64,000 nt of DNA from Pleomorphomonas sp. PLEO (GTDB taxonomy: Bacteria > Pseudomonadota > Alphaproteobacteria > Rhizobiales > Pleomorphomonadaceae): positions 310,001 to 374,000 of the forward strand of contig NZ_CP166625.1 in NCBI RefSeq assembly GCF_041320595.1. The letters are read 5' to 3'. How positions within the stretch are numbered: the stretch's first letter is position 1; each line of letters opens with the position of its first letter. Shown one piece after another: positions 8,822 through 25,591 of this stretch. The translations under genes were made by a program, and so were the position numbers. The notes beneath the pieces are model-generated. The model saw only the letters and a program-made list of their open reading frames with translations, did not search any database and was not told where the DNA came from.

Positions 8822-9376
8822 TCAGTCTGCGCCCATTGCCGGGGGCGCCGGTAGAATTTTGGCGGGGACACCTACTGCAACATGCCCCGGTGGAACCGCT
8901 GATAGCACGACTGCATTGGCGCCTACGATAGCTCCACTTCCGATTTGCACAGGCCCGAGAATAACGGCACCCGAAGATACAATAACCCCATCACCCAAGA
9001 CGGCAAAATTGCCAATTTCGTTAGCCTGAGATGTATATTTTTTACCGATTGTTGCATTTTGAAGTATAGTCGCCCCTCTCCCAACCCTAGCTGCCCCAAT
9101 GACAATCCCTGCAGGGTGCGGCATATAGAGACCTGGGCCGATTACCGCGTGGGGAGATATATCACACGAATTTAGTAGAACATTCGCCCGCCAGAATAAT
9201 TTCGATACCATTTTTCCTAGAATCCCATATTTTAACGCCCCACTTGATATCCTGTAGAAGAGCGCAGCAAGGAAACCTGGATAGATAAATATCCCAACAA
9301 ATAACAATATATAACGCCGCTTAACAGAATATCTCCCAATATCAGAACATACGTCACTTCGGAAAGACCCATTCAT
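8822..9376 (-). CDS. Serine acetyltransferase-like hexapeptide acyltransferase
   Basis: This 184-residue protein has a membrane-proximal hydrophobic segment (RRYILLFVGIFIYPGFLAAL, about residues 20-40) and then a left-handed beta-helix of hexapeptide repeats (IGAARVGRGATILQNATIG, ILGPVQIGSGAIVGANAVV). The repeats end in GVPAKILP, typical of CysE-like serine acetyltransferases. The hydrophobic N-terminus and location argue for O-acetylation of a polysaccharide rather than cysteine synthesis. ATG 9376 is preferred over an upstream start because AGAGGG lies about 10 bases upstream. The last residues (APPAMGAD) are atypical and lie 6 bp from an IS630 relic, so the C-terminus may have been rewritten by that insertion. 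It is the last gene of the cluster. Confidence 0.8.
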   Translation of the reverse strand: MNGSFRSDVCSDIGRYSVKRRYILLFVGIFIYPGFLAALFYRISSGALKYGILGKMVSKLFWRANVLLNSCDISPHAVIGPGLYMPHPAGIVIGAARVGRGATILQNATIGKKYTSQANEIGNFAVLGDGVIVSSGAVILGPVQIGSGAIVGANAVVLSAVPPGHVAVGVPAKILPAPPAMGAD

Positions 9377-9574
9377 CTTCTCTGGACCCTCTTGTTGAGA
9401 GAAACAATATATTTTAATAACGCACAATAACTCGAAACAACCATTTTCAATGCGACTCAAACACAGATATTTTCTGTAATTCTATTTCTGCAATAATATT
9501 TACGTATTTGTATTGTATTTTATGTATACGTGAATTTATTACCATCTTTTTTGATATTAAGATTGAAAAATTAC

Positions 9575-10702
9575 TTACTTCGAGTAAGTTTTGTTTAGCG
9601 TTTCAAATGATTTCTCAATTGAAAATCCGCTCTCGGTAATCCGGTCATAGGCCTCGGCAGGTGTCACGGGGTAATCACTCTCGATCAGACGCACTATCTC
9701 CCCAGCCCAGGCTTCAATGCCGTCGCTCAGCTCCAGCCGTGTGACCAGCTCGGGGATGGCATCCACTTCGTGCGTTATGCTGTTCGACAGTAGGCACTTT
9801 CTCCCCGAAGAGAGCGCCTCGAGAACAACCAAAGGCAGCCCTTCATAAAGCGAAGGCAAAATGAACAGGTCGAAAGTCTGCAGCAGAATATTGGCGTCAG
9901 ACCGCGCCCCAAGGAACTTCACCCGATCCGACAGCCCCTTGTGCACCACATAATCCTCGAGCTCTCTTTGCCGCTGGTCGTCGCCTCCGCCAACCAGGAC
10001 AAGGTAGGCCTCGGGAACGGTCATCGACACTCGCTCAAATACGTCGATCAGAAAGGCGTGATTCTTCTGCGGATGAAATCTTCCGACGTGACCAACGATC
10101 TGCGCGGATGGAGCCAGCCCGAGAAACTCGCGCATGCTTGCCGCGCGCTCTGGAATGTATTTGTAAGCCTCAAAATCTCTTCCACAATAAGCAAGCGAAC
10201 TCTTCTTGCTTTTTTTCCAGTGCTTTCCATACACCACCTCGCCAGCAACGTTGCTGACCGCGAAGAGGTGGGTGCTGAAAACTGGTAAAATGCACCTCAT
10301 GGTGGCGTTGTAGGCTGCTCTCGGCAGGCTCTCTTCTTTCATGACAGGCGCGTTGTGACTGTGGCTGATTCTGACAGGCACGCGGAGAAATAGGCCGATC
10401 AGCATAACTAGGCCATTCTGGAAGGAGTTATGGGCGTGAATAGATTTATAGCCACCGCCCGCGCGATTCACCCTGGCCAGAGCGGACAGAAGGCTAAATA
10501 TACTCCTGTGCGATCTGACATAATACACGTTGGAGCCGCAATCTCTGGCTACCTTCGCGAGCGGCTGTTCGACTGCATCATAAGTAAGAATGTCCATTTG
10601 GACGCCTCTCTTATTCGCAATCTTGATCAGGTCGATCAACCATGTCTGGATTCCGCCGTAGCCCATGGATGCGACGACATGCAGTACTTTCCCACCAGCC
10701 AT
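9575..10702 (-). CDS. Glycosyltransferase family 4 (GT-B)
   Basis: This 375-residue GT-B enzyme has an N-terminal Rossmann-like domain beginning GGKVLHVVASMGYGGIQTW, an acceptor-side motif ISHSHNAPV, and a C-terminal nucleotide-sugar domain with IVGHVGRFHPQKNH. The retaining GT4 signature EGLPLVVLEALSSG supplies the E-x7-E pair. It should add one sugar to the lipid-linked repeat unit in the cytoplasm; the sugar is unknown. ATG 10702 with GGGTAG upstream is chosen; the frame is open further up but without family sequence. A 536-bp gap separates it from the upstream wzy, unusual inside an operon, so it may depend on its own promoter or on antitermination. Confidence 0.88.
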   Translation of the reverse strand: MAGGKVLHVVASMGYGGIQTWLIDLIKIANKRGVQMDILTYDAVEQPLAKVARDCGSNVYYVRSHRSIFSLLSALARVNRAGGGYKSIHAHNSFQNGLVMLIGLFLRVPVRISHSHNAPVMKEESLPRAAYNATMRCILPVFSTHLFAVSNVAGEVVYGKHWKKSKKSSLAYCGRDFEAYKYIPERAASMREFLGLAPSAQIVGHVGRFHPQKNHAFLIDVFERVSMTVPEAYLVLVGGGDDQRQRELEDYVVHKGLSDRVKFLGARSDANILLQTFDLFILPSLYEGLPLVVLEALSSGRKCLLSNSITHEVDAIPELVTRLELSDGIEAWAGEIVRLIESDYPVTPAEAYDRITESGFSIEKSFETLNKTYSK

Positions 10703-11238
10703 AAGAGCTACCCGTTGCAATTGGTGTGAATCTCGAAATTTGAAAACCTGTTTACTTAAAATATTAAGTTCGACCCGACCAGAATTTTTAGCGAAGCCTA
10801 TGCCACCGAGACGGCGGTATTCTTCCGGCAAGATCGACTGTCGGTTCGGACCACTTCAAGTGGCCAGCTTGCTTCGTGTCACCCGCCCGCGCGCACCGAC
10901 CTCTGACAATTTAAGGTTCAGGGCCGCGCATCCGCGCACCATCGGCGAGAGCGCCTTGGCTGCGGAGAGCCGCCGGTGCCGCCCCGTCACTGGGACCTGC
11001 CGAGCAGCACTCGCGCTGAGAAACGCTAATTCGGATCGCGAAGGCAACTCGGCCTGGCCTTGGTCTTCTCGGCAAGGCGCGAAACGCCGCATCGGCACCG
11101 AGGTGATACTTGTTCTCTCAAAACTCTCGGCCTCGGCCCGCAGCCCTATGTCAAGCATTTGTCAGGCTGTGCCCGGCAGGCGGGATTGTCATGCCTCATA
11201 CCGCCGTTGTCCATCCGCAGGCCGGAGCGTTCCGACCA
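10703..11238. other. 536-bp gap inside the polysaccharide cluster
   Basis: No gene is recognised on either strand. Several frames of up to 219 codons are open, but none shows family motifs. The segment next to the glycosyltransferase is AT-rich and may hold its promoter on the minus strand. The rest is GC-rich, unlike wzy, and could be a decayed gene or mobile-element debris that I cannot name. Confidence 0.4.
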
Positions 11239-12663
11239 TCATGTCTTTTTCGTTTTCAACACGAACCGATAGTACATTTTTACCATTACGAGCGGGCCCA
11301 CGCCATACCACACAATATTTCTGATAATCTGCTGCAGCTCTGAACGCGGGTAGAAGGTTATAATTGCACATATACAGGCCCAATAGGCAAAGGCGATCGG
11401 AAAATGATTGTTTTTTACCTTGATCGCGCCCCGGGCCAACGCATATCCCAGGATAGCACTGACAATGACGACGCCGACCCACGAGAAATTCAAGTAGGCT
11501 TCTCCAACGTAGGAAAAGCCGAAGCCTCCTCCAGTAACAGCCCACTCCGGCCTGATCATCGTGGTGATCCATAGCGAGAGTTTGCTCGCGTCCGCCAGAT
11601 TTTCACCGCCACCGAGATGCGGCACCAGAATAGACAGTGCAATGGCGTAACTCTTGCCTAAATCAAACGGTCGCGCCTCGGGCACGATTTGATAGACCCA
11701 GGAGACGATCCGGATTCCCGACCTCCCCATTTCGTCAAGTATCTGGATCGCGGGGTTATTAATACTGTTAAACGCCGTAAGCAAAGATTCTACTGAGTAT
11801 CTGTCGGCTGAGTTTGACTCTCGCGTCGCGGCGATAATCGGGAACACGACGAACAAGACGATCAGACCTGAGGTAGCCGCCCACACTTTCGGGATTGGAG
11901 ATACTCTTCGATGCCAGGTCCAGGCAACCGCCAAAATCGGCATAATCGCGTGCCCTCGCGTCCCCACATAGAAGTTGAGGCCTGCATACATTAACGTTAT
12001 GAGCGCACCTACATATGCGGGCTTCCTTCGGCCACTAGCGATCAGGAAAATCGCCGCGGGAACAATCAGTTCCATCAGAATGAAGGAAATACGAACCGTC
12101 GTTGACTGGATGTTTCCGGGTTCATATATGGCGGCGTAACCTCCATCACCAACCACGCTGGAATACCAGGAGAGGCTGTTGATAAACGGCACAATCGATA
12201 TGGCCAGCAAAATATAGCCAACGTGAACAAGAGCTTTTGCCTCTCTCTCCACACGTCCGAAATCGACGTTTGCTGGATCCGCCTTCCCACTGGCCGAGTG
12301 CATCGCCAGAACCATACCTAGACCGAATGTCACCAAAGAAATCAGGATCATAAAGATGGCCATGTTGGCGACATCAAGGTTTACCAAACCGTTGACCATA
12401 CCCCCCACCGCCTCGATGCCACCAAATACATAAAGCATCTGGTGCCCGGCCAAAAACAACGCCTGTGACAGCAGAAACAGGGTCAAAATATCAAAATAGC
12501 TTTTTGTATGAGCCCCCCAAACCATAAACGACGCCAGCTGCACAAATATGCACAGAAGCGACAGGTAATATGTCGTCTCTGGCGATGAGATATCGCCGAG
12601 GTTCACCACATACACCCCGTATATTACACACAGTGCCATTGACACTATATAGAAAATCCGCAT
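11239..12663 (-). CDS. O-antigen/exopolysaccharide polymerase (Wzy-like)
   Basis: This 474-residue integral membrane protein has about 11-12 predicted hydrophobic segments, beginning at the N-terminus (FYIVSMALCVIYGVYVV). It has a large loop between segments and the segment GFGFSYVGEAYLNFSWVG, which resembles the GxSxxGExYxNFG pattern of O-antigen polymerases. It would join lipid-linked repeat units at the periplasmic face after flipping by Wzx. Sequence is diverse in this family, so topology and neighbours carry the assignment. The gene is AT-richer than ugd and gmd in the same cluster, as is usual for wzy. The start ATG 12663 gives a normal length. Confidence 0.8.
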   Translation of the reverse strand: MRIFYIVSMALCVIYGVYVVNLGDISSPETTYYLSLLCIFVQLASFMVWGAHTKSYFDILTLFLLSQALFLAGHQMLYVFGGIEAVGGMVNGLVNLDVANMAIFMILISLVTFGLGMVLAMHSASGKADPANVDFGRVEREAKALVHVGYILLAISIVPFINSLSWYSSVVGDGGYAAIYEPGNIQSTTVRISFILMELIVPAAIFLIASGRRKPAYVGALITLMYAGLNFYVGTRGHAIMPILAVAWTWHRRVSPIPKVWAATSGLIVLFVVFPIIAATRESNSADRYSVESLLTAFNSINNPAIQILDEMGRSGIRIVSWVYQIVPEARPFDLGKSYAIALSILVPHLGGGENLADASKLSLWITTMIRPEWAVTGGGFGFSYVGEAYLNFSWVGVVIVSAILGYALARGAIKVKNNHFPIAFAYWACICAIITFYPRSELQQIIRNIVWYGVGPLVMVKMYYRFVLKTKKT

Positions 12664-13033: not shown

Positions 13034-13585
13034 TCAAGCTATCTGCTCTTCGGCCTTTTTCACTATTATCCTTGCACGCTGCCCGATAGCCGTGGATCCC
13101 TCCGGCATACTGTCAAGCACGACGGTTAACGCACCAATCTTGCAGTTGTCTCCGATCGTTATGCCGCCAAGCACTTGCGCGTATGCCCCGATCTCCACGT
13201 TATCACCTATAACCGGCGCGACTTGGTCGTTATATCGATTTCCGATAGTAACGCCTTGTCTCAGAGTGCAGTTTTCACCCAATACAGCATTTATATTAAC
13301 GAATATTCCGCCAAAATGCCAAATCCGCAAGCCTTTACCGATCTTGCACTCAATCGGAAGCCTAATGCCGGTCGAAGTCTCCACCATCGTCGAAAGTATC
13401 TTGTAGATAATATATTTTATTCTTTTAACAACTCCGCTACGTCTCTTGCGGACTCGTTGCCCGAATCTGTAAACCCAAATTGCCCACAACGACTGCTCGC
13501 GGAAGAAAGCCCACCTTCCGGGCACTCTCGCTTTGTCAGCAAGCCAGTCTTCATCCATGCTACCAAACATTGTCACAGCTCTCAC
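13034..13585 (-). CDS. Serine acetyltransferase-like O-acetyltransferase
   Basis: A 183-residue CysE-type left-handed beta-helix protein. The N-terminal part (WAFFREQSLWAIWVYRFGQR, about residues 25-45) is typical of serine-acetyltransferase homologues in polysaccharide clusters. The helix includes LRIWHFGGIFVNINAVLG with the catalytic-type His, then GENCTLRQGVTIGNR and VEIGAYAQVLGGITIGDN. It probably O-acetylates a repeat-unit sugar from acetyl-CoA. Internal methionines at 13570 and 13561 are alternative starts. IS copy 2 lies about 100 bp upstream and separates it from wzx, so expression from the main promoter must cross an IS oriented the same way. Confidence 0.82.
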   Translation of the reverse strand: MRAVTMFGSMDEDWLADKARVPGRWAFFREQSLWAIWVYRFGQRVRKRRSGVVKRIKYIIYKILSTMVETSTGIRLPIECKIGKGLRIWHFGGIFVNINAVLGENCTLRQGVTIGNRYNDQVAPVIGDNVEIGAYAQVLGGITIGDNCKIGALTVVLDSMPEGSTAIGQRARIIVKKAEEQIA

Positions 13586-13749: not shown

Positions 13750-14169
13750 CTAGTTTTCTGGCCGCTTGTCGTAGCGCGTTGCGATGCCCCGGAACTGTTT
13801 GATCCGATTGAAGAACCGCTCCACGAGGTTTCGCTGCCGGTAGACCCAACGCGAGAACGAGAAGGTGCCCTTGCGATTGGTCTTCGGCGGAATGTTGGCC
13901 CAGGCCTTCCGTTCAGCCGCTTTGGCCCGAATGGCATTGCTGTCATACCCCTTGTCGGCCAGTAGGATGTCGCCTTCGCCGAGGTCATCGGTGAGGGCGT
14001 CGGCTTCGGTGCAGTCGGCAACCTGTCCGCCCGTCAGACGGAGGGTGACGGGGCGACCTTCAGCGTCGACGAGCGCGTGGATTTTGCTCGTAAGTCCACC
14101 GCGGGAACGCCCTACGCAGCCATTCCAGCGATCTTGCAGATCGCCGGAACCTTTGTCTGCTCCGCCCAT
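13750..14169 (-). CDS. IS5/IS427 transposase OrfB, copy 2
   Basis: This protein is identical to OrfB of copy 1, with the second Asp in ILLADKGYD and the Glu in NLVERFFNRI. It is reached by a -1 frameshift from orfA at the A5G5 run. Base differences from copy 1 in this frame (for example in codons near AERKAW and RQRNLVE) are silent. Because the element is in the same direction as the polysaccharide genes, its transcript could be part of the operon message. Confidence 0.88.
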   Translation of the reverse strand: MGGADKGSGDLQDRWNGCVGRSRGGLTSKIHALVDAEGRPVTLRLTGGQVADCTEADALTDDLGEGDILLADKGYDSNAIRAKAAERKAWANIPPKTNRKGTFSFSRWVYRQRNLVERFFNRIKQFRGIATRYDKRPEN

Positions 14170-14516
14170 GCCGCCATCGTATCCATCCCCCTTTTTCCCG
14201 TGGCGGCGTGCTGGTGAACGCGGACACAGGTCGAGTCGATCATGACGATGTCGCCGTCGTAGGCGGAGGAAACCGCTTCAAGAAGCCGATCCCAGACGCC
14301 GGCCTTCCGCCAGCGAACGAAGCGATTGTAGCAAGTGGTCGGCGGGCCGTAGCGCTCGGGGACTTCCGCCCAAGGCGATCCTGTCCGGAAGCGCCAAAGG
14401 ATGCCGTTCATCACACGACGATCATCGACGCGAGGAACGCCACGCGGCTTGTTGGGCAATAACGGCGACAGGATCGACCATTCATGGTCGGTGAGTTCGT
14501 ACCGGCGACGCGTCAT
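14112..14516 (-). CDS. IS5/IS427 transposase OrfA, copy 2
   Basis: Identical in protein sequence to copy 1 (MTRRRYELTDHEWSIL to the Asp of VMIDSTC). ATG 14516 is chosen for the same reason as in copy 1: it directly follows the AAGGCTTCC/GGAAGCCTT stem-loop. That stem-loop would limit translation from read-through polysaccharide-operon transcripts, which matters more here because the IS lies co-directionally inside the operon. Confidence 0.9.
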   Translation of the reverse strand: MTRRRYELTDHEWSILSPLLPNKPRGVPRVDDRRVMNGILWRFRTGSPWAEVPERYGPPTTCYNRFVRWRKAGVWDRLLEAVSSAYDGDIVMIDSTCVRVHQHAATGKRGMDTMAAWAEQTKVPAICKIAGMAA

Positions 14517-14665
14517 CAAGGCTTCCCCTTTCGGAAGCCTTGAATCATGCGACCCCACAAACGCCAAGCGAATTTATGAGTTTACGGCCTAGCATGATGG
14601 ATCAAGGCACCGACACACCAATTCGATAACCTAAGAGCCGCTAAAGCTCTGGGCTTATGTTTTAT

Positions 14666-15901
14666 TCAGCGACCGCGGAAATTTCTTCGATAGATAAACA
14701 GTAGCACTAACGGCGCCAGCACCGACATAGCCGAGGCTACAACCAGTGAGTAAGCAGCACCCAGTACTCCATACTGAGGAACATAGACCAAGGCAGCAAC
14801 CAGACCTATCAAGGCGGCCAAGCCAAAGGCCGGCGCCTGCCCAGCGAATATCTTGGCCGACGTCACCGCAACGCCAAGCACATTACCTACATACCCGATG
14901 ATCGCAGCAACAACAATGACCGGAAACACGTCCGCCTTGCCCGCGAAACGCTCTCCATATAGAAGCCTGATCAACTGTCCACCATAGGCGTATGCGATCA
15001 GAGTGCAAATGCCGCCGGCAACAATAACAACAGCCAAAATGGACAGCGTAAGTGTAAAAAACTCTCTATGTCTTTTGGCTGCATGCTGCCTTGATAGGAT
15101 AGGAATTAATGCCTGCCCTATAGACATGATGAAAATATTTCCAAGAGCAACAAAGTATGCCATGCTAGAGTATAGACCTAGATCAAGTGGTCCATAGTAT
15201 TTTTCTAAAACATATCTTGGTATGTTCGGCCCAAGCAAGCTAAACAGCGTTGTAATACCCAACGGTATTCCTGACCTCAAAAACCTCATGACCTTTTCTG
15301 ATCGCACCACTCCGTTCACGTCAAAATGCTCTACATTTCGCACGTCGTAAAACACCAAAACAGCAAACCACGTCACCGTATATGCGAGCAGAGTTATTTG
15401 CATTGTTAAATCTAAAAAGAGAAAGATGACAATTGTGAGCGTACTTATCACGCCCCTCACGAACAAAGATAACGATATACTGTTTAGTTCTCCGGATTTT
15501 TGTGCGTAACCATAGCAAAAATCGGAAAACGATTCGATGACCTTGGAGGCAGCCACGATCCAAATGATATCGCGAACTTCAGCCCTGAAAATGAATGACG
15601 CGCCGATGCACACTGCAAATGAAAATATCGACAAAGCAAGCTTGATGTACAAAAGCGTCTTCACGTCGAATGTCGAGGTGTGGTCCGTGGCGATGATGGT
15701 TCTGATGCCACAGTTGAAGAACATGATGATCGGCGCGGTCACAGCCAGAGCAAGCGTGAAGTCGCCGACTGCCTCAGGCCCCTTGAGCCTTGCTATGCTG
15801 ATTAGAACCACCCACTGGCAGGCGGCGTAAATCGAGTTGCCAAATACCATCCAGATTGCATTTCGCTTCAGCCCGCCCTTTTTTACCTGACTATCACTCA
15901 T
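14666..15901 (-). CDS. Polysaccharide flippase (Wzx/RfbX, MOP superfamily)
   Basis: This 411-residue integral membrane protein has about 12 hydrophobic segments. It begins with the charged KKGGLKRNAIWMVFGNSIYA typical of Wzx proteins, with inner segments such as GITTLFSLLGPNIPRYVL and a C-terminal pair ending in the positively charged FIYRRNFRGR. It should flip the undecaprenyl-linked repeat unit to the periplasm for Wzy. It lies downstream of the two glycosyltransferases and is followed by IS copy 2. It is AT-richer than the nucleotide-sugar genes. The ATG at 15901 has GAAAGAAG upstream. Confidence 0.86.
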   Translation of the reverse strand: MSDSQVKKGGLKRNAIWMVFGNSIYAACQWVVLISIARLKGPEAVGDFTLALAVTAPIIMFFNCGIRTIIATDHTSTFDVKTLLYIKLALSIFSFAVCIGASFIFRAEVRDIIWIVAASKVIESFSDFCYGYAQKSGELNSISLSLFVRGVISTLTIVIFLFLDLTMQITLLAYTVTWFAVLVFYDVRNVEHFDVNGVVRSEKVMRFLRSGIPLGITTLFSLLGPNIPRYVLEKYYGPLDLGLYSSMAYFVALGNIFIMSIGQALIPILSRQHAAKRHREFFTLTLSILAVVIVAGGICTLIAYAYGGQLIRLLYGERFAGKADVFPVIVVAAIIGYVGNVLGVAVTSAKIFAGQAPAFGLAALIGLVAALVYVPQYGVLGAAYSLVVASAMSVLAPLVLLFIYRRNFRGR

Positions 15902-16090: not shown

Positions 16091-17260
16091 TCATTCACCG
16101 GCGGCGATCAGATCAGCATACATCTGCCGTCGGCGAGCACTGACTTTGTCCTTGTGATAGTCGCGGGCAATTTCAAGATTGGTAATCGACAGCCTGTTCA
16201 TTCTCTCCGGATCAGCGACCAGCTTCTCGATCTTTTCAGCCAGATCATGTTCATCGCCGGAGGTCACCATCTCAGACAGCGGCAACAACTCGCCGACGCC
16301 GCCAACATCGGAGGCAATGCTCGGCAGACCTCGGGCCATTGCCTCAAGAAGCGCGCGCGGCAGACCTTCCTGACGCGAGGGCAACACAAACAGATCCGCG
16401 TCATCCAACGCCTGGTGAATTGCCTTTCCCTTCGGCAGGAGGCCGGCGAACTCGACGACGCCCGTCAGGTTTAGTGAGCGCGCCTGATTCTCGAACTCTT
16501 GACGGTTGTCACCGTCTCCAACCATCACCAGCTTTAGTTTGACGCCCTTCTCGGTCAGCCGGCTGATCGACTTCAGAAGAACGTCCTGCCCCTTGATGTT
16601 CTGGTGCATCATTCCCACCGTCACGAGCTTCGTAGGCTCGCCGGGCCTCTTGTCGAAGATTTTGGGCGAATCAACAAAGTCGACATTTTCCAGGTTCAAG
16701 GACGTGTAGTGGTAGGTCGGCTTGCCTTTCCCGGGCGGATAACGCCTTTGAAGCGCGGACTCCGTCACATAGGAGCTGACAGCGGCTGACAGGCACTGCG
16801 ACTTGGTTGCCCAGACCTGGAAGACCTTCAAAACGGACCTAAGCGGCAGCGTGCCCGCGCCCTTCTGCAGGTTGTCAAGTGGGTCGGCCACGACCTCGAT
16901 ACCAAAGGGGATTCCACGGAGACGAAGGATCATCCAAGCAATGGTCGCGATGAACCCAGGGATGCGGAGTATATAGGACGATTTCCGCGGAAATCTGAAG
17001 AATATTCCTAGCAGCTGGGGCAGATAAACCACCATCTGCGACAGCTTTCTGATGTTGGGGAGTTCCAGTACCCTCACGTTCGGTCCGGCGAGCTTGTAGC
17101 CGTTTCTCGCCTCCCAGTCGCCTACTCGGGTGACGACAACGACTTCATCGAACATCTCGGCGTAGCGCGACCAGAAATTTTCATAGCTGAGATGGTTTGA
17201 CGCCGGTTGTCCATCCAAACGCCCAAAGTACCCATCCAGAATAACATGCACCCTCTTCAT
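16091..17260 (-). CDS. Glycosyltransferase family 4
   Basis: This 389-residue GT-B protein has an N-terminal start KRVHVILDGYFGRLDG, a central linker, a donor domain with LVTVGMMHQNIKGQDVLL and the GT4 signature EGLPRALLEAMARGLPSIAS. It is a retaining transferase acting on the lipid-linked repeat unit; donor and linkage are unknown. An in-frame TTG at 17278 is possible, but ATG 17260 with AAAAGG about ten bases upstream is preferred. Gaps of about 190-210 bp lie on both sides. The upstream one contains a small GGGC-TTCA-GCCC inverted repeat without a strong T-run. Confidence 0.88.
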   Translation of the reverse strand: MKRVHVILDGYFGRLDGQPASNHLSYENFWSRYAEMFDEVVVVTRVGDWEARNGYKLAGPNVRVLELPNIRKLSQMVVYLPQLLGIFFRFPRKSSYILRIPGFIATIAWMILRLRGIPFGIEVVADPLDNLQKGAGTLPLRSVLKVFQVWATKSQCLSAAVSSYVTESALQRRYPPGKGKPTYHYTSLNLENVDFVDSPKIFDKRPGEPTKLVTVGMMHQNIKGQDVLLKSISRLTEKGVKLKLVMVGDGDNRQEFENQARSLNLTGVVEFAGLLPKGKAIHQALDDADLFVLPSRQEGLPRALLEAMARGLPSIASDVGGVGELLPLSEMVTSGDEHDLAEKIEKLVADPERMNRLSITNLEIARDYHKDKVSARRRQMYADLIAAGE

Positions 17261-17470
17261 TATACGAAGCCTTTTCAATTGTAATATGCGTCTGCTTTCC
17301 CAGATTACTTGATCAATTTAGGGCTGAAGCCCCCTTTATAATTCTGCACGCATATGCCTTTGATCCTTGCTTAGTCTAAGGCACTTGGGTACCGGATCAG
17401 TTAGCCGCTAGGGACTTTTCATCTTGCGGTGAACCAAGGGGTATTCCGGCGCGCGCACCAAAGGACGTCT

Positions 17471-18586
17471 TCATGCGGTCCGGCCCGAGCTACGCTTACG
17501 CTCACGCGCCTCAACATACATGTCGCAAGTTCTCTCGTTCATTTTCAACGAAGTGAACTGCTCTTCGAAGCGAAGCCTCGCCTTGATCCCCATGTCTCGC
17601 ACATCGACGCGAGACAGCCTGTCGAACGCCGCGACAATCGCTGTGGGGCTGTTAGGCTCGAAAAGAATCCCGGTCACGCCATCAACGACGATCTCGGACA
17701 ACCCGCCAACGCCTGAGGCCAGCACGGGACGCCCTGCGCGCATGGCTTCGATCGCAACCAGGCCAAACCCTTCCCAACGGGACGGCATCACCACCACATC
17801 AGCGCTCGCCATCGCCTTCGCAACAAAAGCCGAATCCTGCCAACCCCAGTCCTTGATATAGTCTAGGAGCTCAGCCGACCCTCCTCCATCAACCACATGG
17901 CCACCGACGATATCCAACTCATATCCCCGTTTTTCGAGCTCCTTCATCGCTTCGATCAGGATGTCCAGCCCCTTCTGCTTGTCGTAGCGTCCGACAAACA
18001 GCAGCTTTTTCGGTCGGGTAGCCTCAGGCAGCGGCATCCAGTCCTTGTCTTTGACACCATTGTATATCATCCGGCACTTTGTCTCGCTTATGCCGGCCTC
18101 AATGGCGATACTCTGTTCATGGTTGGAGATATTGACGACAACATCGCTTCTCATCGCGAGAACGGACTCGATCAGCTCGTATACCTTCTTCTTGTATTTC
18201 GAGATACTCATCGAGAAAGACCAACCATGCGCGCAGTATACACATGCAACAGCCTTGCCGCTTCTCCCGACTCTACCGACGAGGCCGGCAAACGTGCTGT
18301 GCAGGTGGAGAACATTATGAGGCACCGTCTTCTTGATGCGACTGTAGTCGAGGAACAATCTTGCGACGCTGCCTAGGCTTCGAGAGTTGTAGTCAACGGG
18401 GATAACCCTGACTCCCTCGACCTTTATCAGATCCACCTGGTTCCTGGGGCAGATGATTGTGACCTCGCCGCAGCTCTGGACCTGATACTCGAATATTTCA
18501 TTGAGGAATGACGCCACACCTCCCTGAAGGGTCTCAGCAAAATGGAGTACTTTTAATTCTCTCATTGCTTTCGCCGAATTTTTCAT
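17471..18586 (-). CDS. Glycosyltransferase family 4
   Basis: A 371-residue GT-B enzyme. N-terminal domain: LKVLHFAETLQGGVASFLNE with the glycine-rich donor-side loop. Middle: VLHLHSTFAGLVGRVG and CAHGWSFSM. C-terminal domain: KLLFVGRYDKQKGLDIL and the E-x7-E motif in EGFGLVAIEAMRAG. This is a typical cytoplasmic polysaccharide glycosyltransferase. ATG 18586 or ATG 18565 may start it. It follows the epimerase gene by about 85 bp on the minus strand, so it is probably on the same transcript. Confidence 0.88.
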   Translation of the reverse strand: MKNSAKAMRELKVLHFAETLQGGVASFLNEIFEYQVQSCGEVTIICPRNQVDLIKVEGVRVIPVDYNSRSLGSVARLFLDYSRIKKTVPHNVLHLHSTFAGLVGRVGRSGKAVACVYCAHGWSFSMSISKYKKKVYELIESVLAMRSDVVVNISNHEQSIAIEAGISETKCRMIYNGVKDKDWMPLPEATRPKKLLFVGRYDKQKGLDILIEAMKELEKRGYELDIVGGHVVDGGGSAELLDYIKDWGWQDSAFVAKAMASADVVVMPSRWEGFGLVAIEAMRAGRPVLASGVGGLSEIVVDGVTGILFEPNSPTAIVAAFDRLSRVDVRDMGIKARLRFEEQFTSLKMNERTCDMYVEARERKRSSGRTA

Positions 18587-18670: not shown

Positions 18671-19681
18671 TCACGCATTATTCCAGGTCCTGTACCATTC
18701 GACGAAGTTTTTGACGCCGTGTGGCACGTCGGTATCCGGAACATATCCGGTGAGGGCTTTGAGGAGATCGGGTGCGGCGAAGGTCTGGGGCACGTCGCCC
18801 TTTTGCATGGGCAGCAGGTTGCGGGTGGCAGGCTTGCCGAGCGCCTGTTCGATGGCTGTGATGAAGTCCAAGAGGCCGACCGGCTGGCCACCGCCGATGT
18901 TGACGATGCGGAACGGCGCCTGTTTGGACAGTGTATCGATCACGCCCTCGGCGGTGACGCGGTTGTCCTCGCTCGGTGCGACCGGAACGAGCCGGACGAT
19001 CGCCTCGACGAGATCCTCCACGTAAGTGAAGTCGCGCCGCATGTTGCCTTCGCCGTAGACGTCGATCGCCTCGCCCTTTTCGATGGCGTCAACGAACTTG
19101 AACAGCGCCATGTCCGGCCGGCCCCAGGGACCGTAGACGGTGAAGAAGCGGAAGGCGGTGGTCGGGATCTTCCATAGGTGGGCGTAGGAGTGGCCCATCG
19201 CCTCCATCGCCTTCTTGGTGGCGGCGTAAAGCGTCAGCGGCTCATCGGTCTTGTCGGCTTCTGCGAAGGGAACCTTGTCATTGGCACCATAGACCGACGA
19301 CGTCGAGGCCAGCATCAGGTGCTTCACTTCGCACGCCTTGGCCAGCTCCAGCACGTTCCAACTGCCGACGAGGTTGGCGTCGACATAGGCGCGTGGGTTC
19401 TCGAGGCTGTAGCGGACGCCGGCCTGGGCGGCGAGGTGGATGATCACCTCGGGCTCGGCCAGCTCAGCCGCCTGCTTGAGCGCTTCAGCGTCTTCCAGTT
19501 GACCGATCACCGCCCGAAAGCCGTTCGATCGCTCGAGGAGAGCGTGCCGCGCCTCCTTGAGGCGGACGTCATAATAGGGCGTCATGCCGTCGAAGCCGAC
19601 CACGAAGTGGCCGGCGTCGAGAAGACGCCGGGCGAGATGGAAGCCGATGAAGCCGGCGGTGCCGGTGATCAGGAAGCGCAT
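18671..19681 (-). CDS. lpsL: UDP-glucuronate 4-epimerase (LpsL-type)
   Basis: This extended short-chain dehydrogenase of 336 residues has the NAD-binding motif [12 protein letters not shown] at the start, the Ser of ASTSSVYGA and the YxxxK pair in [13 protein letters not shown]. It matches the family that interconverts UDP-glucuronate and UDP-galacturonate, indicated by [15 protein letters not shown] after the second beta strand and [17 protein letters not shown] near the substrate site. It would provide UDP-galacturonate for the polymer. ATG 19681 overlaps the ugd stop (TGATG), so the two genes are translationally coupled, matching their consecutive reactions. Other sugar-nucleotide 4-epimerases are possible but less likely given the partner. 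Confidence 0.88.
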
Positions 19682-21021
19682 CACTCGGCCGCCTGGGCTA
19701 CGGAACCGGCGATCGGCGAGCCGCGCCCGACGCTGGTATAGCTGAAGCCGTGCTTCTCCACTTCCTCGGGCCGGTAGATGTTCCTGAGGTCAACCAGCAC
19801 CGGCGCCTTCATCACGGCCTTGAGGCGGGGGAAGTCCAGCGCCCGGAACTCGTTCCACTCGGTGACGATGCAGACCGCGTCGGCGTCCTTGGCCGCCTCG
19901 TAGGCACTGCCGACATAATCGATGTTGTCGATCAGCTTCCTGGCGTTGTCCATGCCCTCGGGATCGAAGCCGCGCACCGTGGCGCCGGCGTCCTGCAGCG
20001 CCTGGATGATGGAAATCGCCGGACTGTCGCGCATGTCGTCGGTCATCGGCTTGAAGGTGAGGCCGAGCACGGCCACCGTCTTGCCACGGGCGTCGCCGCC
20101 CACCGCCTGAATGACTTTCCTCGCCATCGCCCGCTTGCGGATGTCGTTGACGGCAACGGTGGTCTCGATCAGGCGCACCGGGCTGTCATAGTCCTGAGCG
20201 GTCTTGACCAGAGCCAGCGTATCCTTGGGGAAGCACGAGCCGCCGTAACCGGGGCCGGCATGCAGGAACTTCGCCCCGATGCGGCCGTCGAGACCGATGC
20301 CGCGCGCCACCTGCTGTACGTCGGCACCCACCTTCTCGCAGAGATCGGCGATCTCGTTGATGAAGGTGATCTTCATCGCCAGGAAGGCGTTGCCGGCGTA
20401 CTTGATCAGCTCGGAGGTGCGGCGCTTGGTGAACAGCAGCGGCGCCTGGTTGAGATAGAGCGGCCGGTAGACCTCGGTCATCACCTCGCGGGCCCGTTCG
20501 TCCTCATAGCCGATGACGATGCGGTCGGGCCGCTTGAAGTCATCGATCGCCGCGCCTTCGCGCAGGAACTCGGGATTGGAGACGACGGCGACGTCGGCGG
20601 CCGGGTTGGTCTCGCGGATGATGCGCTCGACCTCGTCACCGGTGCCGACCGGCACCGTCGACTTGGTGACCACCACGGTGAAGCCCTTCACCGCCGCGGC
20701 GATCTCGCGGGCGGCCGCGTAGACATAAGACAGATCGGCATGGCCGTCACCGCGCCGCGACGGCGTGCCGACGGCGATGAACACCACGTCGGCTTCGGAC
20801 ACCGGACCGGCGAGGTCGGTCGAAAAGGTCAGGCGGCCTGACTTCACGTTGGCGGCGACCAGTGCGTCGAGCCCGGGCTCGTAGATGGGGATCTCGCCGC
20901 GCTCCAGCGCCTCGATCTTCTCCACCGCCTTGTCCATGCACACAACGTCATGGCCGAAATCGGCGAAACATGTCCCCGAAACAAGGCCAACGTAGCCAGA
21001 TCCTATCATCACGATCTTCAA
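19681..21021 (-). CDS. ugd: UDP-glucose 6-dehydrogenase
   Basis: A full-length enzyme of 446 residues oxidising UDP-glucose to UDP-glucuronate with two NAD. The N-terminal Rossmann motif is [19 protein letters not shown], the central helix region contains [14 protein letters not shown], and the catalytic Cys lies in [16 protein letters not shown]. The C-terminal domain begins [18 protein letters not shown]. It starts with TTG at 21021, supported by GGAG eight bases upstream and by the [10 protein letters not shown] start. A 160-bp gap with a strong hairpin separates it from fcl upstream. It supplies the epimerase next to it and makes the polymer acidic. Confidence 0.95.
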
Positions 21022-21181: not shown

Positions 21182-22129
21182 TCAAAAAGCGACACTATTC
21201 GCAACTACAAAGGCCTTGTATGCTGAGGCGATGCCATCCTCGAGGCGGATGATTGGCTTCCATCCAAGTGACCGGATCTTGTCGGCGCCCATCAGCTTGC
21301 GCGGCGTGCCGTCGGGCTTGGTGAGGTCGTGGACAATCTTGCCCTTGAAGCCGACAACCTTACAGACAAGCTTGGTGAGGTCGAGGATGGAGATATCCTC
21401 ACCCGAGCCGACGTTGACGTGTTCGAAGTCCGAATAGACCTTCATTAGGTGCACGCAAGCGTCGGCGCAGTCGTCGACATGCAGAAACTCGCGGAGCGGC
21501 TTGCCTGTGCCCCAGACGGTGATTTCCTTATCGCCCCGAAGCTTCGCCTCGTGCGCCTTGCGGATCAACGCCGGCATCACGTGGCTGGAATTGAGATCGA
21601 AGTTGTCGCCGGGGCCGTAGAGGTTGGTTGGCATGGCCGAGATGAAGTCGGCACCGTGCTGCTTGCGGTAGGCCTGGCAGAGCTTGATGCCTGCGATCTT
21701 GGCGATCGCGTACCACTCGTTGGTCGGCTCCAGTTCGCCAGTGAGCAGCGCGCTTTCGACGATCGGCTGGGCCGCGAACTTCGGATAGATGCAGGACGAC
21801 CCTAGGAAGCAGAGTTTCTCGACGCCGGCTCGGAAGGATGCCTCGATAACGTTGGCCTCGATGATCAGGTTGTCGTAGAGGAAATCCGCCGGATAGGTGT
21901 CGTTGGCGAGGATGCCGCCCACTTTGGCGGCGGCCACGAACACTGCATCGGGCTTTTGCTGGCTGACCCAGGTGCGGACCGCTGCCTGATCCTTGAGGTC
22001 AAGCTCGCTACGATCGGCGGTCAGGATTTCGCAGCCCTCGGAGGCTAGCCGGCGGGCGATGGCTGAGCCGACCATGCCACGGTGTCCGGCCACCCAGACC
22101 TTCTTGCCCTTGAGATCGTAGGAAGCCAT
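21182..22129 (-). CDS. fcl: GDP-L-fucose synthase
   Basis: A 315-residue short-chain dehydrogenase converting GDP-4-keto-6-deoxymannose to GDP-L-fucose with NADPH. Visible features are the cofactor motif VAGHRGMVGSAIARRL, the family-specific LGSSCIYPKFAAQPI with the catalytic Ser and Cys, and the Tyr-Lys pair in NEWYAIAKIAGIKLCQAY. Length is normal. The gene starts 2 bp after the gmd stop codon, so the pair is one unit. It implies L-fucose, or a sugar made from it, in the polymer. Confidence 0.95.
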   Translation of the reverse strand: MASYDLKGKKVWVAGHRGMVGSAIARRLASEGCEILTADRSELDLKDQAAVRTWVSQQKPDAVFVAAAKVGGILANDTYPADFLYDNLIIEANVIEASFRAGVEKLCFLGSSCIYPKFAAQPIVESALLTGELEPTNEWYAIAKIAGIKLCQAYRKQHGADFISAMPTNLYGPGDNFDLNSSHVMPALIRKAHEAKLRGDKEITVWGTGKPLREFLHVDDCADACVHLMKVYSDFEHVNVGSGEDISILDLTKLVCKVVGFKGKIVHDLTKPDGTPRKLMGADKIRSLGWKPIIRLEDGIASAYKAFVVANSVAF

Positions 22130-22130
22130 C

Positions 22131-23198
22131 TCAGGCCTCCTTCATCACGGTCGCGGTCTGCATCACCTTGAGATCTTCGTTGACCATCTCGCGGCAGAGT
22201 TCGCGCACGCTCGTCTCATGTTTCCAGCCGAGTTTGGTTTGCGCCTTGGTCGGGTCGCCAATCAGGAGCTCGACCTCGGTGGGGCGGAAGTAACGCGGAT
22301 CGACCTCGACGATCACCTTACCCGTGAGGCTGTCGATGCCCTTTTCCTCGATCCCTTCGCCCTGCCACTCAAGGTGAATGCCGACATCCTCGAAGGCCCA
22401 GGTGACGAACTGACGGACTTCGGTGGTCTCCCCGGTGGCAAGCACGTAATCGTCCGGCTGATCTTGCTGCAGCATCAACCACATGCCGCGCACATATTCC
22501 CGGGCGTGCCCCCAGTCGCGCTTGGCACTCAGGTTGCCGAGATAGAGCTTCTCCTGTTTGCCGAGCCGGATGGCGGCGGCGGCGCGGCTGATCTTGCGCG
22601 TAACGAAGGTCTCGCCTCTCAACGGACTTTCGTGATTGAACAGGATGCCGTTCGAAGCATGAAGACCGTAGGCTTCGCGGTAGTTCACCACAATCCAGTA
22701 GGCATAAAGCTTGGCAGCGGCGTAAGGCGAACGCGGATAGAAGGGCGTCGTCTCTCGCTGCGGAACTTCTTGCACCAGACCATAAAGCTCGGAGGTTGAT
22801 GCCTGATAGAAGCGCGTCTTCTTTTCCATCCCGAGGATGCGGATCGCCTCTAGAAGCCTAAGGGTCCCGATACCGTCGGCCTGGGCGGTGTATTCAGGCG
22901 TCTCGAAGGACACTTGAACGTGCGACTGCGCGGCAAGATTATAAATTTCGTCCGGCTTAGTTTCCTGGACGATGCGGATCAGGTTGGTCGAATCCGTCAT
23001 GTCACCATAGTGCAGGTGAAAACGGGCATTTTCGACATGCGGGTCCTGGTAGATGCTTTCGATGCGACCGGTATTGAAGGATGATGACCGCCGCTTGACA
23101 CCGTGGACGGTGTAGCCCTTGTCCAACAAAAGCTGAGCGAGATAGGCGCCATCCTGACCGGTGATACCCGTAACGAGAGCCGTTTTTCCTGAAGACAC
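22131..23198 (-). CDS. gmd: GDP-mannose 4,6-dehydratase
   Basis: This 355-residue dehydratase carries out the first committed step to GDP-fucose. It shows [20 protein letters not shown] (cofactor loop), [13 protein letters not shown] (the arginine-serine dimer and NADP loop), [13 protein letters not shown], the Ser/Glu/Tyr/Lys residues in STSELYG and [10 protein letters not shown], and the LNHESPLRG-type segment [20 protein letters not shown] 23198 is preferred because AGGTGG lies five bases upstream; GTG 23207 and TTG 23201 are alternatives. It is the first structural gene behind the NusG-like regulator and has a 309-bp leader with an ops-like element. Confidence 0.95.
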
Positions 23199-23343
23199 CA
23201 AAACCACCTATAAAAACAGCCGAAGCGAGCAACATGGGGCTCAGCTATGGCCGGACTGGCAACGATCGAGATCCGTCCTCGATAAGCACTGACAGTCAAC
23301 TTACATCAAGTTCGATAAAGCCACATCTCAAGCACGTCAGTCA

Positions 23344-23383
23344 CTAGACGGGACCAAACTCCCCGCTAGACAAAAGCTACCGC
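23344..23383 (-). promoter_or_regulatory. ops-like element plus stem-loop in the gmd leader
   Basis: On the transcribed (minus) strand the leader reads GTGCGGTAGCTTTTG at about 23385-23371. Its core GCGGTAGC (23383-23376) equals the core of the enterobacterial ops element bound by RfaH. Directly downstream, CTAG-C-GGG (5' side, 23369-23362) can pair with CCC-G-T-CTAG (3' side, to 23344) as an 8-bp stem with one bulged T. A recruitment element followed by RNA structure, between a NusG paralogue gene and its presumed target operon, fits a processive antitermination site. This is inference from sequence and position only. Confidence 0.45.
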
Positions 23384-23507
23384 ACTCCGGGTGAAATCAC
23401 TCACCACAGACCAAACGGCACCACCGTCGCGAATGAACAGCCAAAGACCGCCCTCACGCCTCAACCGGAGGCTATCAACGCACCCATACCTCACACCCAA
23501 GCGGCGA

Positions 23508-24071
23508 TCACGCCACCTGGAGAATCATATCGCGGGAAACGCCCGCCCGCACCTGACTACCCATCAAGCTCATCAATAGAACCAGACGATTACGCCCATC
23601 AAGCCGCTCGATCACGCCGAGCTGCTCGGCAAACGGCCCCGCTCTGAGGCGCACCGTCATGCCGGGCTGCAGTGGATCGACGAACTCAAGAATTCCGTCG
23701 GCACCGGTCGACGCTACCAACGTCTCAACGATACCGCGCTTGATCGCGACGGGAGCATCGCCGTTAGTCACCAGCGATCGCACCCCCCGCGTTCCGTTGA
23801 TCGACCGCCAACGCGCCTGCGCCGGATCTAGGCGCACAAAAACATAGCCGCGAAAAACGGGTGCCGTCGTAGCTATCGTCTTGCGAGCGTGACGACGCAC
23901 CACCTTTTCAAGCGGAGAAAACGTAAAAAAGCCCTGACGGCGGAGGTTATCGACCGCGACACCTTCACGCTGCGGCTGTGTCATGGCAGCGAACCAGCGC
24001 TCACCATCTTGAGGCCCCTCGAATATGACCTCAGACACCCCAGCAGCCTTTTGGGAAAACAAACTTTCCAT
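23508..24071 (-). CDS. NusG-paralogue transcription antiterminator (RfaH/UpxY-like)
   Basis: This 187-residue protein combines an NGN domain (RWFAAMTQPQREGVAVDNLR, then FTFSPLEKVVRR and the VFRGYVFVRLDPAQ block, about residues 25-120) with a C-terminal KOW domain (LQPGMTVRLRAGPFAEQLGV, about 130-187). Housekeeping NusG sits beside secE and rplK; this copy heads a polysaccharide cluster, the hallmark of specialised paralogues such as RfaH and UpxY. These travel with RNA polymerase to suppress termination and boost translation of long operons. ATG 24071 is chosen because AGAAGGGG precedes it. Its target is presumably the gmd-fcl-ugd-lpsL-glycosyltransferase operon downstream. Confidence 0.85.
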   Translation of the reverse strand: MESLFSQKAAGVSEVIFEGPQDGERWFAAMTQPQREGVAVDNLRRQGFFTFSPLEKVVRRHARKTIATTAPVFRGYVFVRLDPAQARWRSINGTRGVRSLVTNGDAPVAIKRGIVETLVASTGADGILEFVDPLQPGMTVRLRAGPFAEQLGVIERLDGRNRLVLLMSLMGSQVRAGVSRDMILQVA

Positions 24072-24163
24072 AAGGCCCCTTCTTACGCCCAACACAGCCC
24101 CGTCTCGAAATCAGTCCGTCAACACACCCCGAGAGCCACAGCACATCTCATCGTTGAGCTGCA

Positions 24164-24193
24164 ATTATCCTGCCAGTTTATACACCCACACAA
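24164..24193 (-). promoter_or_regulatory. Possible promoter of the nusG-like gene
   Basis: On the minus strand, TTGTGT (24193-24188) and GATAAT (24169-24164) are separated by 18 bases, about 95 bases upstream of the start. Consensus match only. It would be the main promoter of the polysaccharide cluster. Confidence 0.35.
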
Positions 24194-24299
24194 CATAACC
24201 AGCCTAATCGGCCCCGGCGACGAAAGCGTGACGTTCGGCAAGCACCCCACTCAACGCGACGAGAAATCGCGGCACCCCTTTTAAAACAACAACCTAATT

Positions 24300-24844
24300 A
24301 CAAATCCAACAGCCTTGAAGCTTAGAAAAATCAAAACTCAACTCGTAATCTGGATGGAGCGAACACCCCTAACCATCCGCAAAATCCATTAGTCAACGGT
24401 ACTTTCGATTGAGTGAGGCTGTCAACCACCGCCTTGCGGGAAGAGAGTTTCAAATCCATCCAATGGTAAATCTGCATCGCCAGGGACGCCGTCCCTGGCG
24501 TTAGCGCCAGTCGAAGGATGGACGGAGAAAGAACGAAACAGCTTGGCAATTGAGCACCAAAGACAGGCGCGCCGGAGGCTCCGCTCTACGGCAGCCATTG
24601 CGACTGCATCTCGATGCTGTCGCAAATAGCGACACTGAGGAGGCGTTCGCGGCTCCTGCGACGCTGCCGTTTCTGCCGCTTTTATGGGCAGCGGCGGCCG
24701 TACTCTTTTACTGCCAGTCCCAACACCAAGCGCAAAGCCCGTTTTGATGGACAGCCGGTCTAGCGGGGCTTGGCCGTTTGTGGAAGTCCCGCAAAGCCCC
24801 GAGACTCTGGCTTCCGCCAGAGCCGGCTGGCCAGATGTTTATGC
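24300..24844. other. Intergenic region with several strong inverted repeats
   Basis: No supported gene. CGCCAGGGAC-GCC-GTCCCTGGCG at 24478-24500 is a 10-bp perfect stem that overlaps an alternative GGCG-TTA-GCGCC stem. CGGGGCTT (24764-24771) pairs with AAGCCCCG (24794-24801), and CTCTGGC (24805-24811) with GCCAGAG (24816-24822). The last two lie just downstream of the thuA stop on the minus strand and may end that operon, though T-runs are lacking. Confidence 0.5.
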
Positions 24845-25591
24845 TCAGCCCTTCACTGCCGGACGGCGATGCAGCGGTTCGGCTCGGTGCCAGTTTTCGA
24901 GGATGCGGCCGTCGGTGTGGGCCTGCTTCACCCAGCGAATACCGTTGGAGATCACCTTGTGCACCATCGGATCATGATAGATCGGGAACGTCTCGTGGCC
25001 GGGGCTGAAGTAGAAAATACGGCCACGCCCGCGCTGGAAGGTGCAACCGGAACGGAACACCTCACCGCCTGAATACCAGGACATGAAGACGATCTCGTCG
25101 GGCTGCGGGATATCAAAAGGCTCGCCATACATTTCCGAGGCCGCCACTTCGAAATAGGGCGGCAGGCCCTCGGCGATCGGATGCGATGGATTGACCACCC
25201 AGACGCGCTCGAGATCACCGTCCGGCATTTCGCGCCAGGACAGATTGCAGTTGGTCCCCATTAGCCGCTTGAACAGTTTGGAGTGATGGCCCGAATGCAG
25301 CACGACGAGGCCCATGCCCCTGAGTACGCGCTGCTGGACACGATCGATCAGGCCGTCGCTGACATCGTCATGGGCCATATGCCCCCACCAGAGCAGCACA
25401 TCGGTGTCGTCCAGCAGGCTCTGCGGCAGCCCCTCATTGGGATCATCGAGCGTACCACGACGGATCTCGAAGTCGGCGTGCGCGATGCCCTTGGCGATCG
25501 CGCCATCGATGCGGTCGGGATAGATGTCGCTCACCGCTTTGTGGAGCTGCTCGTGGCGGCCCTCGTTCCAAATGGTTACCTTGATGGGCAT
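24845..25591 (-). CDS. thuA: ThuA-family (trehalose utilisation) protein
   Basis: This 248-residue protein has the ThuA class I glutamine-amidotransferase-like fold. It contains KVTIWNEGRHEQ, the central DTDVLLWWGHMAHDDVSD, GMGLVVLHSGHHSKLFKRLM and the late RGRIFYFSPGHETFPIYHDP. In Sinorhizobium, thuA and thuB follow the thuEFGK transporter genes and act in catabolism of trehalose and similar disaccharides, probably through 3-keto glycosides. Here thuA closes the equivalent operon, 14 bp after the ATPase gene. The nearby thuB-like gene is divergent at 30086. The substrate may not be trehalose, because a GH38 mannosidase belongs to the same locus. Confidence 0.85.
   Translation of the reverse strand: MPIKVTIWNEGRHEQLHKAVSDIYPDRIDGAIAKGIAHADFEIRRGTLDDPNEGLPQSLLDDTDVLLWWGHMAHDDVSDGLIDRVQQRVLRGMGLVVLHSGHHSKLFKRLMGTNCNLSWREMPDGDLERVWVVNPSHPIAEGLPPYFEVAASEMYGEPFDIPQPDEIVFMSWYSGGEVFRSGCTFQRGRGRIFYFSPGHETFPIYHDPMVHKVISNGIRWVKQAHTDGRILENWHRAEPLHRRPAVKG

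Follow-up and report, generated by a model that had tools for sequence, protein, structure and literature searches.

The leader of a polysaccharide operon in a 64,000-nt stretch of DNA (hereafter the window) from a Pleomorphomonas genome (5.48 Mb, single contig) carries a composite element, in which a nascent-RNA hairpin is directly followed by the octamer GCGGTAGC, identical to the core of the enterobacterial ops site. The sequences that we compared show the element itself, where it lies and that it is conserved, the covariation of its hairpin and its association with an RfaH-like NusG paralogue and with polysaccharide genes. By this comparison the element is real, conserved, class-wide and of the recruitment type, recruitment itself being its presumed function. 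It is very probably the alphaproteobacterial counterpart of ops/JUMPstart, and would pause RNA polymerase and load the usually neighboring paralogue against polarity. The features of the locus were as follows.

23508..24071, minus strand: RfaH-like NusG paralogue, 187 aa (ATG at 24071; frame open up to a GTG at 24095; PF02357)
23208..23507, minus strand: leader, from the paralogue stop to gmd
23372..23413, minus strand: full composite element, comprising hairpin, ops-like core and 4 nt (covariance model R1, 35.0 bits)
about 23387..23409, minus strand: RNA hairpin directly 5' of the core; its GGTGA/TCACC stem is extended outwards (predicted fold, z −2.30)
23376..23383, minus (transcribed) strand: ops-like core GCGGTAGC, equal to G2–C9 of E. 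coli ops
23374, minus strand: candidate pause position, the equivalent of ops U11, placed by register with ops alone (the window reads TTTTG where E. coli has TG at positions 11–12)
22131..23207, minus strand: gmd, GDP-mannose 4,6-dehydratase, first gene past the element (TIGR01472, 622.7 bits)
21182..22129, minus strand: fcl, GDP-L-fucose synthase (NF047922, 540.2 bits)
19681..21021, minus strand: nucleotide sugar dehydrogenase of the UDP-glucose dehydrogenase type (TIGR03026, above cut-off)
18671..19684, minus strand: NAD-dependent epimerase/dehydratase (PF01370)
17471..18586, minus strand: glycosyltransferase, GT4 type (PF00534)
16091..17278, minus strand: glycosyltransferase, GT4 type (PF00534)
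14666..15901, minus strand: Wzx-type polysaccharide flippase (PF01943)
13034..13585, minus strand: hexapeptide-repeat transferase (PF00132)
11239..12663, minus strand: Wzy-type O-antigen polysaccharide polymerase (PF14296, 142 bits)
9575..10831, minus strand: glycosyltransferase (PF13692)
8822..9460, minus strand: hexapeptide-repeat protein, the distal limit of the polysaccharide genes as examined (PF00132)

The Wzx/Wzy-type cluster runs on the minus strand to about 8822 and is broken by IS transposase frames; two frames of an IS4/5-type transposase lie within it at 13750–14567 on the minus strand (PF13340 and PF01609). The initial annotation had placed a NusG paralogue at the cluster head, and the 187-aa protein encoded at 23508–24071 on the minus strand indeed has a NusG domain (PF02357, 64.2 bits). 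The leader length of 309 bp given there corresponds to a gmd start at GTG 23198; with the GTG at 23207 as start codon, the leader measures 300 bp. In the interval 23000–25000, a sigma-70 promoter scan returned no promoter-like site, and a terminator scan returned one terminator-like site, located within the paralogue gene (23598–23583), and none in the leader. No Rfam family matched at gathering score anywhere in the window.

The core lies 124 nt past the paralogue stop and about 170 nt ahead of gmd, on the transcribed strand of the leader as had been annotated. The chance expectation that had accompanied it, roughly one leader in 200, was about right: shuffling the 64-kb window gave 2.0 copies over the two strands together, against 3 observed, so that a single 8-mer match is weak evidence and conservation carries the case. 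Within its own genome, the element was matched once only by R1 (E ≤ 0.001), and the extended pattern CACCCNNANNGCGGTAGC was likewise present in a single copy. An orthologue of the paralogue was found in 12 of 14 genus genomes, one of which has a second paralogue, and GCGGTAGC occurred in all 13 of the corresponding leaders (12/12 orthologues and the second paralogue), 113–198 nt past the stop and embedded in TTCACCCGGAGTGCGGTAGCTTTTG or a near variant. The next gene varied by eye (gmd, another epimerase or a UDP-sugar dehydrogenase) and the core was kept. Two genus genomes (89% and 86% complete) had neither paralogue nor element. CACCCNNANNGCGGTAGC was found 14 times in the 14 genus genomes, and 13 of these copies lay within paralogue leaders; the fourteenth (genome G010), GCGGTAGCGTGG, has the letters of E. 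coli and lies 237 nt ahead of a UDP-glucose dehydrogenase gene. A related-locus search of genome contigs returned two loci only, in P. carboxyditropha SVCO-16 and in a Pleomorphomonas MAG.

Other parts of the leader also recur in the genus. A second conserved stretch, GATAGCCTCCG-TCGAGGC, was seen by eye early in the leader (about 23437–23475, minus strand) and at the same place in genus leaders; most members of the genus could form a GCCTC/GAGGC hairpin from it. Short repeats of the type CTTATCGAA / GGCTTTATCGAAC, seen by eye and shared by several genus members, lie in the interval that separates the element from the first gene (about 23300–23325, minus strand).

In the order sample of 297 genomes, the paralogue was detected (E ≤ 1e-15) in 59 genomes at 61 loci. 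The exact core was present within 300 nt past the stop at 35 of the 61 loci, compared with 0.17 expected from dinucleotide shuffles, and it was found neither on the other strand of these leaders (0/61) nor in the 400 nt upstream of the paralogue (0). In a motif-free count, GCGGTAGC was the top 8-mer of the leaders (19/35 genera); the best 8-mer upstream of the gene reached at most 8 genera, and the best inside the gene 15. The extended pattern CACCCNNANNGCGGTAGC occurred in 37 of 59 genomes with the paralogue versus 5 of 238 without it (Fisher, 2e-26), and 44 of the 59 paralogue genomes had an exact-core element when 7 leaders whose core has no CACCCNNANNGCGGTAGC flank were counted. The 46 matches to CACCCNNANNGCGGTAGC, in 42 genomes, were divided among paralogue leaders (28), other places in paralogue genomes (13) and paralogue-free genomes (5). 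A reversed-pattern control gave about 34 matches against these 46, so the genome-wide count is not enriched; the raw count is no proof and the location is the evidence.

All 13 remote copies examined precede a polysaccharide-type gene, scored as the first sizeable Pfam-assigned frame, at distances from overlap to 871 nt. The genes encode nucleotide-sugar dehydrogenases, epimerases, asparagine-synthase-type amidotransferases, glycosyl/sugar transferases and a mannose-1-phosphate guanylyltransferase-type protein. In genome G242, a copy of the element lies ahead of the paralogue gene itself. Genome G155 has two near-identical copies (L114, L115) of the element together with the roughly 300 nt that follow, one ahead of a UDP-sugar dehydrogenase and one ahead of unassigned frames, which looks like a recent duplication.

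The class sample comprised 385 genomes, 82 of them with the paralogue, and 83 of the 84 non-own matches were examined (G627 was left out). The core was present within 300 nt past the stop in 28 of the 83 leaders outside the order, where it was again the top 8-mer; TTTCACCC occurred in 18 of these leaders, and an antisense core in 1 of the 83. Loci with no exact core within 300 nt numbered 26 of 61 in the order and 55 of 83 in the class, including 3 of the 55 with leaders shortened by contig ends. TCACC was found within 16 nt ahead of the core in 32 of 35 order leaders and 25 of 28 class leaders. In three related genomes (L146, L150, L158), the element lies upstream on the opposite strand and faces a divergent unit. 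In the phylum sample, a stricter pattern matched 7 of 398 genomes, 6 within the class and 1 outside it (G697), and by this pattern-only count the TCACCC form therefore looks alphaproteobacterial. The check that the initial annotation had proposed, conservation of the 8-mer in orthologous leaders, thus gave a positive outcome in genus, order and class, and the observation of an ops-like core holds far beyond chance.

The hairpin of the element differs from the one first annotated, which was a stem-loop immediately after the core (23344–23369, minus strand). That stem-loop can be drawn, but it was no better than shuffles in the window (z −0.04 for 66 nt, −0.36 for the 45 nt past the core), and for the stretch after the core, 40 order/genus leaders had a mean z of −0.11 and 28 class leaders one of +0.20. 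Having neither fold signal nor conservation, it was rejected as part of the conserved element. The conserved hairpin, missed in that annotation, lies 5' of the core and consists of a GGGTGA..TCACCC stem with a covarying extension. The stretch 5' of the core gave a mean z of −2.35 in the 40 order/genus leaders (35/40 below −1) and −2.32 in the 28 class leaders (25/28 below −1). The leader had also been described as mixing the ops of RfaH with the RNA hairpin of LoaP; since the hairpin named for this was the wrong one and the conserved one comes ahead of the core, an order also found in E. coli JUMPstart, the parallel is with JUMPstart and not with an RfaH/LoaP mixture.

To assess pairing between the two arms, 5' arms were swapped between genera. 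Native arms gave −13.82 kcal/mol compared with −11.15 kcal/mol after swapping, an average cost of 2.7 kcal/mol, and none of 2000 swaps was as good. On flanking windows the test was weak, the native value being reached by 11 of 200 swaps upstream and 41 of 200 downstream. Alignment A3, made of 16 of 23 elements of one loop register, had changes on both sides in 9 of 12 pairs and a covariation of 0.371 versus 0.166 in shuffles (0/500 as high), and on all five measures it outscored every one of 500 shuffles; with the partner shifted by one column, pairing fell from 83% to 45–47%. These covariation counts lean towards structure, because the register group was picked by best pairing and R1 was built on A3, whereas the arm-swap test is independent of the register choice. 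A3 replaced a gapless 34-row alignment (A2), which was dropped because stems with different loop lengths could not be placed. The hairpin statistics excluded L054, L058, L064 and L081, pattern matches in genomes with no paralogue at threshold that were judged by eye to be chance, as well as L115, whose element equals that of L114 letter for letter; the fifth match in a paralogue-free genome (L055), ahead of a mannose-1-phosphate guanylyltransferase-type gene, was kept.

The stem was retained with unrelated sequence in some lineages (L104, L105, L108, L110 and the AT-rich L204 and L205), and the loop varied from 3 to more than 10 nt. The 3' arm ended at −8 to −1 relative to the core in 82 of 82 elements. 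In a strand test, the stems held 19 G-U against 13 A-C mismatches, which does not clearly point to either strand as the one that folds. The innermost TCACCC was conserved more than pairing alone demands, which leaves room for a sequence-specific role that this arm may have.

The paralogue scored best, among all NCBIfam models, against RfaH (TIGR01955, 87.9 bits; cut-off 144.5), followed by UpxY (NF033644, 69.8 bits; cut-off 100); LoaP (NF033641, 45.4 bits; cut-off 125) and NusG (40.2 bits) scored lower, and all four scores were below their cut-offs. Its closest solved structures were those of E. coli RfaH. The host genome contained one further match to the paralogue (26% identity), presumably the housekeeping NusG. 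Residues were compared across 68 element-bearing paralogues, with L127, L128 and L172, which are cut by contig ends, excluded. F56 of RfaH (68/68), G74 (68/68), Q24 (66/68) and T72 (65/68) were retained. At the position of NusG F165, the Phe that contacts Rho, all 68 have Leu, Met or Val. The ops-contact residues were partly kept (K10 7/68, H20 23/68, R23 44/68, R73 15/68), with Asn at the position of H20 in 39/68; the window protein has Q, N, R and R at the K10, H20, R23 and R73 positions and does not match the full contact set. The contact residues did not separate paralogues by presence of the element. With Q24, T72, G74 and F56 kept and R73 and K10 mostly replaced, the same DNA hairpin is therefore likely recognized by a partly rebuilt pocket. 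R138 was kept in 66/68 and E48 in 6/68, and these residue counts do not support autoinhibition through an E48–R138 contact of the RfaH type. An AlphaFold model built from three sequences had a mean pLDDT of 33.7, too low for use on the fold of the KOW domain.

Running R1 on 80 loci and the window revealed five further cis leaders (L035, L036, L154, L160, L165; E 9e-8 to 2e-3) with the core GCGGCAGC, which has C at the flipped-out T6 position, together with the usual hairpin. R23 was absent in 4 of the 5 paralogues beside GCGGCAGC (A, D, A, E) versus 24 of 68 in the T6 set; the neighboring frames of L160 and L165 have an internal stop. By residue counts, the apparent link between the T6-to-C change and loss of R23 is a lead, not a result. 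Genome G023 (L036, L082, L226) has two paralogues, one beside GCGGCAGC and one beside GCGGTAGC, and a third element elsewhere, and genome G005 (L013, L014) has two paralogues, each with its own element.

From the anatomy of the element and the parallel with E. coli, we infer pausing, docking, exclusion of NusG, antipolarity and a role for the RNA hairpin. Once the core that directly follows the hairpin in the leader has been transcribed, the non-template strand would adopt the small hairpin of ops, and the polymerase would pause. In his-type pauses, the hairpin stops some 11 nt short of the RNA 3' end. The 3' edge of the present RNA hairpin would lie about 11–15 nt ahead of the expected RNA end, where it may contribute to holding the pause or to positioning the complex. 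Next, the RfaH-like paralogue, encoded just upstream, would dock on the displayed non-template hairpin, keep the housekeeping NusG, and with it Rho, off the polymerase, and take the polymerase through the long polysaccharide operon. A bolder version, which we hold to be possible though rather doubtful, is a two-hairpin ops, with joint action of an RNA pause hairpin seated in the exit channel and the DNA hairpin of the non-template strand, the complex being hairpin-stabilized and ops-paused at once. This layout would be ancestral to both classes, with JUMPstart as its gammaproteobacterial form, and a T/C (GCGGCAGC) recognition code would add parallel insulated antitermination circuits in one cell.

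Part of the evidence can be read differently. The paralogue might recognize the RNA hairpin, with GCGGTAGC serving as a pause signal only; LoaP, according to the excerpted report (PMC12691694), binds to a hairpin in the leader RNA of its targets, the present hairpin is conserved and covaries, and the base-contact residues of RfaH are only partly kept. Yet ops positions 4–8 are kept in the element, though in E. coli, according to excerpts of the RfaH–ops study (PMC5995543), they are needed for RfaH and not for pausing, and a core that merely paused would therefore not need them. The hairpin sequence is also free in several lineages where the core is fixed, and the paralogue reaches 45.4 bits with the LoaP model, whose cut-off is 125; we consider this reading unlikely.

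A plain DNA operator, with inverted repeat and core bound by a dimeric regulator (repressor or activator) and resembling ops by coincidence, would suit the palindromic look of GGGTGA..TCACCC and the conservation of TCACCC beyond what pairing requires. Such a site needs fixed spacing, however, and the loop between the arms ranges from 3 to more than 10 nt; hairpins of wholly different sequence (the six lineages named above) still pair, the core is antisense in 0/61 order and 1/83 class leaders, the cis core sits past the neighboring gene and not ahead of it, and its letters are exactly those of the ops DNA hairpin. This makes an operator very improbable. Leader hairpins are common, and the hairpin could in principle be part of an attenuator or of a processing site and have nothing to do with the adjoining core, but it is followed by no T run, the leader has no terminator-like site, the spacing of hairpin and core is fixed in all 82 elements, and their association holds across orders; we give this explanation almost no credence.

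A 2020 survey of RfaH evolution, in its excerpted text, places 18% of RfaH-like genes in Alphaproteobacteria and treats E. coli RfaH as the sole member with a detailed recruitment mode (PMC7593976). Our search of the open-licence PubMed Central literature found no description of an ops or JUMPstart element in Alphaproteobacteria. If the element works as proposed, it would supply the missing recruitment site for a second class, extend the enterobacterial RfaH/ops mechanism to that whole class and make target operons predictable by sequence. The ancient parts of ops would then be the 8-nt DNA hairpin and the RNA hairpin, and the variable parts the flanks and the RfaH contacts. The RNA hairpin is relevant to E. 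coli too: the ops-paused structures paper, as excerpted, treats the ops complex as distinct from hairpin-stabilized pauses (PMC11001881), whereas in each of the two K-12 leaders examined a hairpin adjoins ops. Leaders with the T6-to-C change would be a natural system in which to test shifts in base recognition.

Compared with known systems, the element shares with LoaP the combination of a NusG paralogue and, in the leader of the target, a short RNA hairpin; LoaP binds such a hairpin in the dfn/mln leaders (excerpts of PMC12691694). It differs in that the LoaP leader, in the excerpted account, has no ops core and a hairpin with a UNCG loop, and LoaP acts by terminator read-through, antagonizing NusA; the paralogue also scores far under the LoaP cut-off. 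UpxY is likewise encoded at the head of polysaccharide operons according to the survey excerpts (PMC7593976), but the paralogue is under the UpxY cut-off, and the excerpted text describes no recognition element of the ops/hairpin kind for UpxY.

The likeness to enterobacterial ops/RfaH is closer. In the cryo-EM structure of the ops-paused complex, as excerpted (PMC11001881), non-template G2–C9 forms the ops hairpin with the pairs G2:C9 and C3:G8, and GCGGTAGC is letter for letter this two-base-pair DNA hairpin. RfaH reads the invariant ops G5 and T6, and needs bases 4, 5, 7 and 8, which pausing does not (excerpts of PMC5995543). Thirteen of 68 cis elements run on as GCGGTAGCGTG, the exact letters of E. 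coli; the E. coli TG at positions 11–12 is present in 32 of 68, and the window has TTTTG instead. Both systems have polysaccharide targets, and the regulator is a NusG-family protein nearest to the RfaH model; it keeps F56, responsible for tight RNA polymerase binding, and has lost the Rho-contact loop residue of NusG. Unlike RfaH of E. coli (PMC7593976), the alphaproteobacterial regulator is usually encoded beside its target, R73 and K10 are mostly replaced, E48 is lost and the score is under the family cut-off.

With JUMPstart (RF01707), the element shares a stem-loop abutting the ops core in polysaccharide-operon leaders, a conserved stem-loop having been reported among gammaproteobacterial JUMPstart elements in 2010 (excerpt of PMC2864571). 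In the rfb and waa leaders of E. coli K-12, which matched Rfam JUMPstart with 60.0 and 55.2 bits, CUGG..CCAG and CAGG..CCUG stems abut GGGCGGTAGCGTG. These two stems (L206:9138–9176 and L207:14183–14221, both minus strand) compensate each other, and are thus evidence of hairpin retention in E. coli too. The stem and loop sequences are unlike those of the alphaproteobacterial element. RF01707 scored 12.2 bits on the window against a gathering score of 35 and matched none of 32 alphaproteobacterial genomes (30 with the new element, and G083 and G086 with no known element), the E. coli control being positive; conversely, R1 did not match the two K-12 JUMPstarts at E ≤ 1. The element, on present analysis, would thus be like JUMPstart/ops in its working and stands outside RF01707 as that family is defined.
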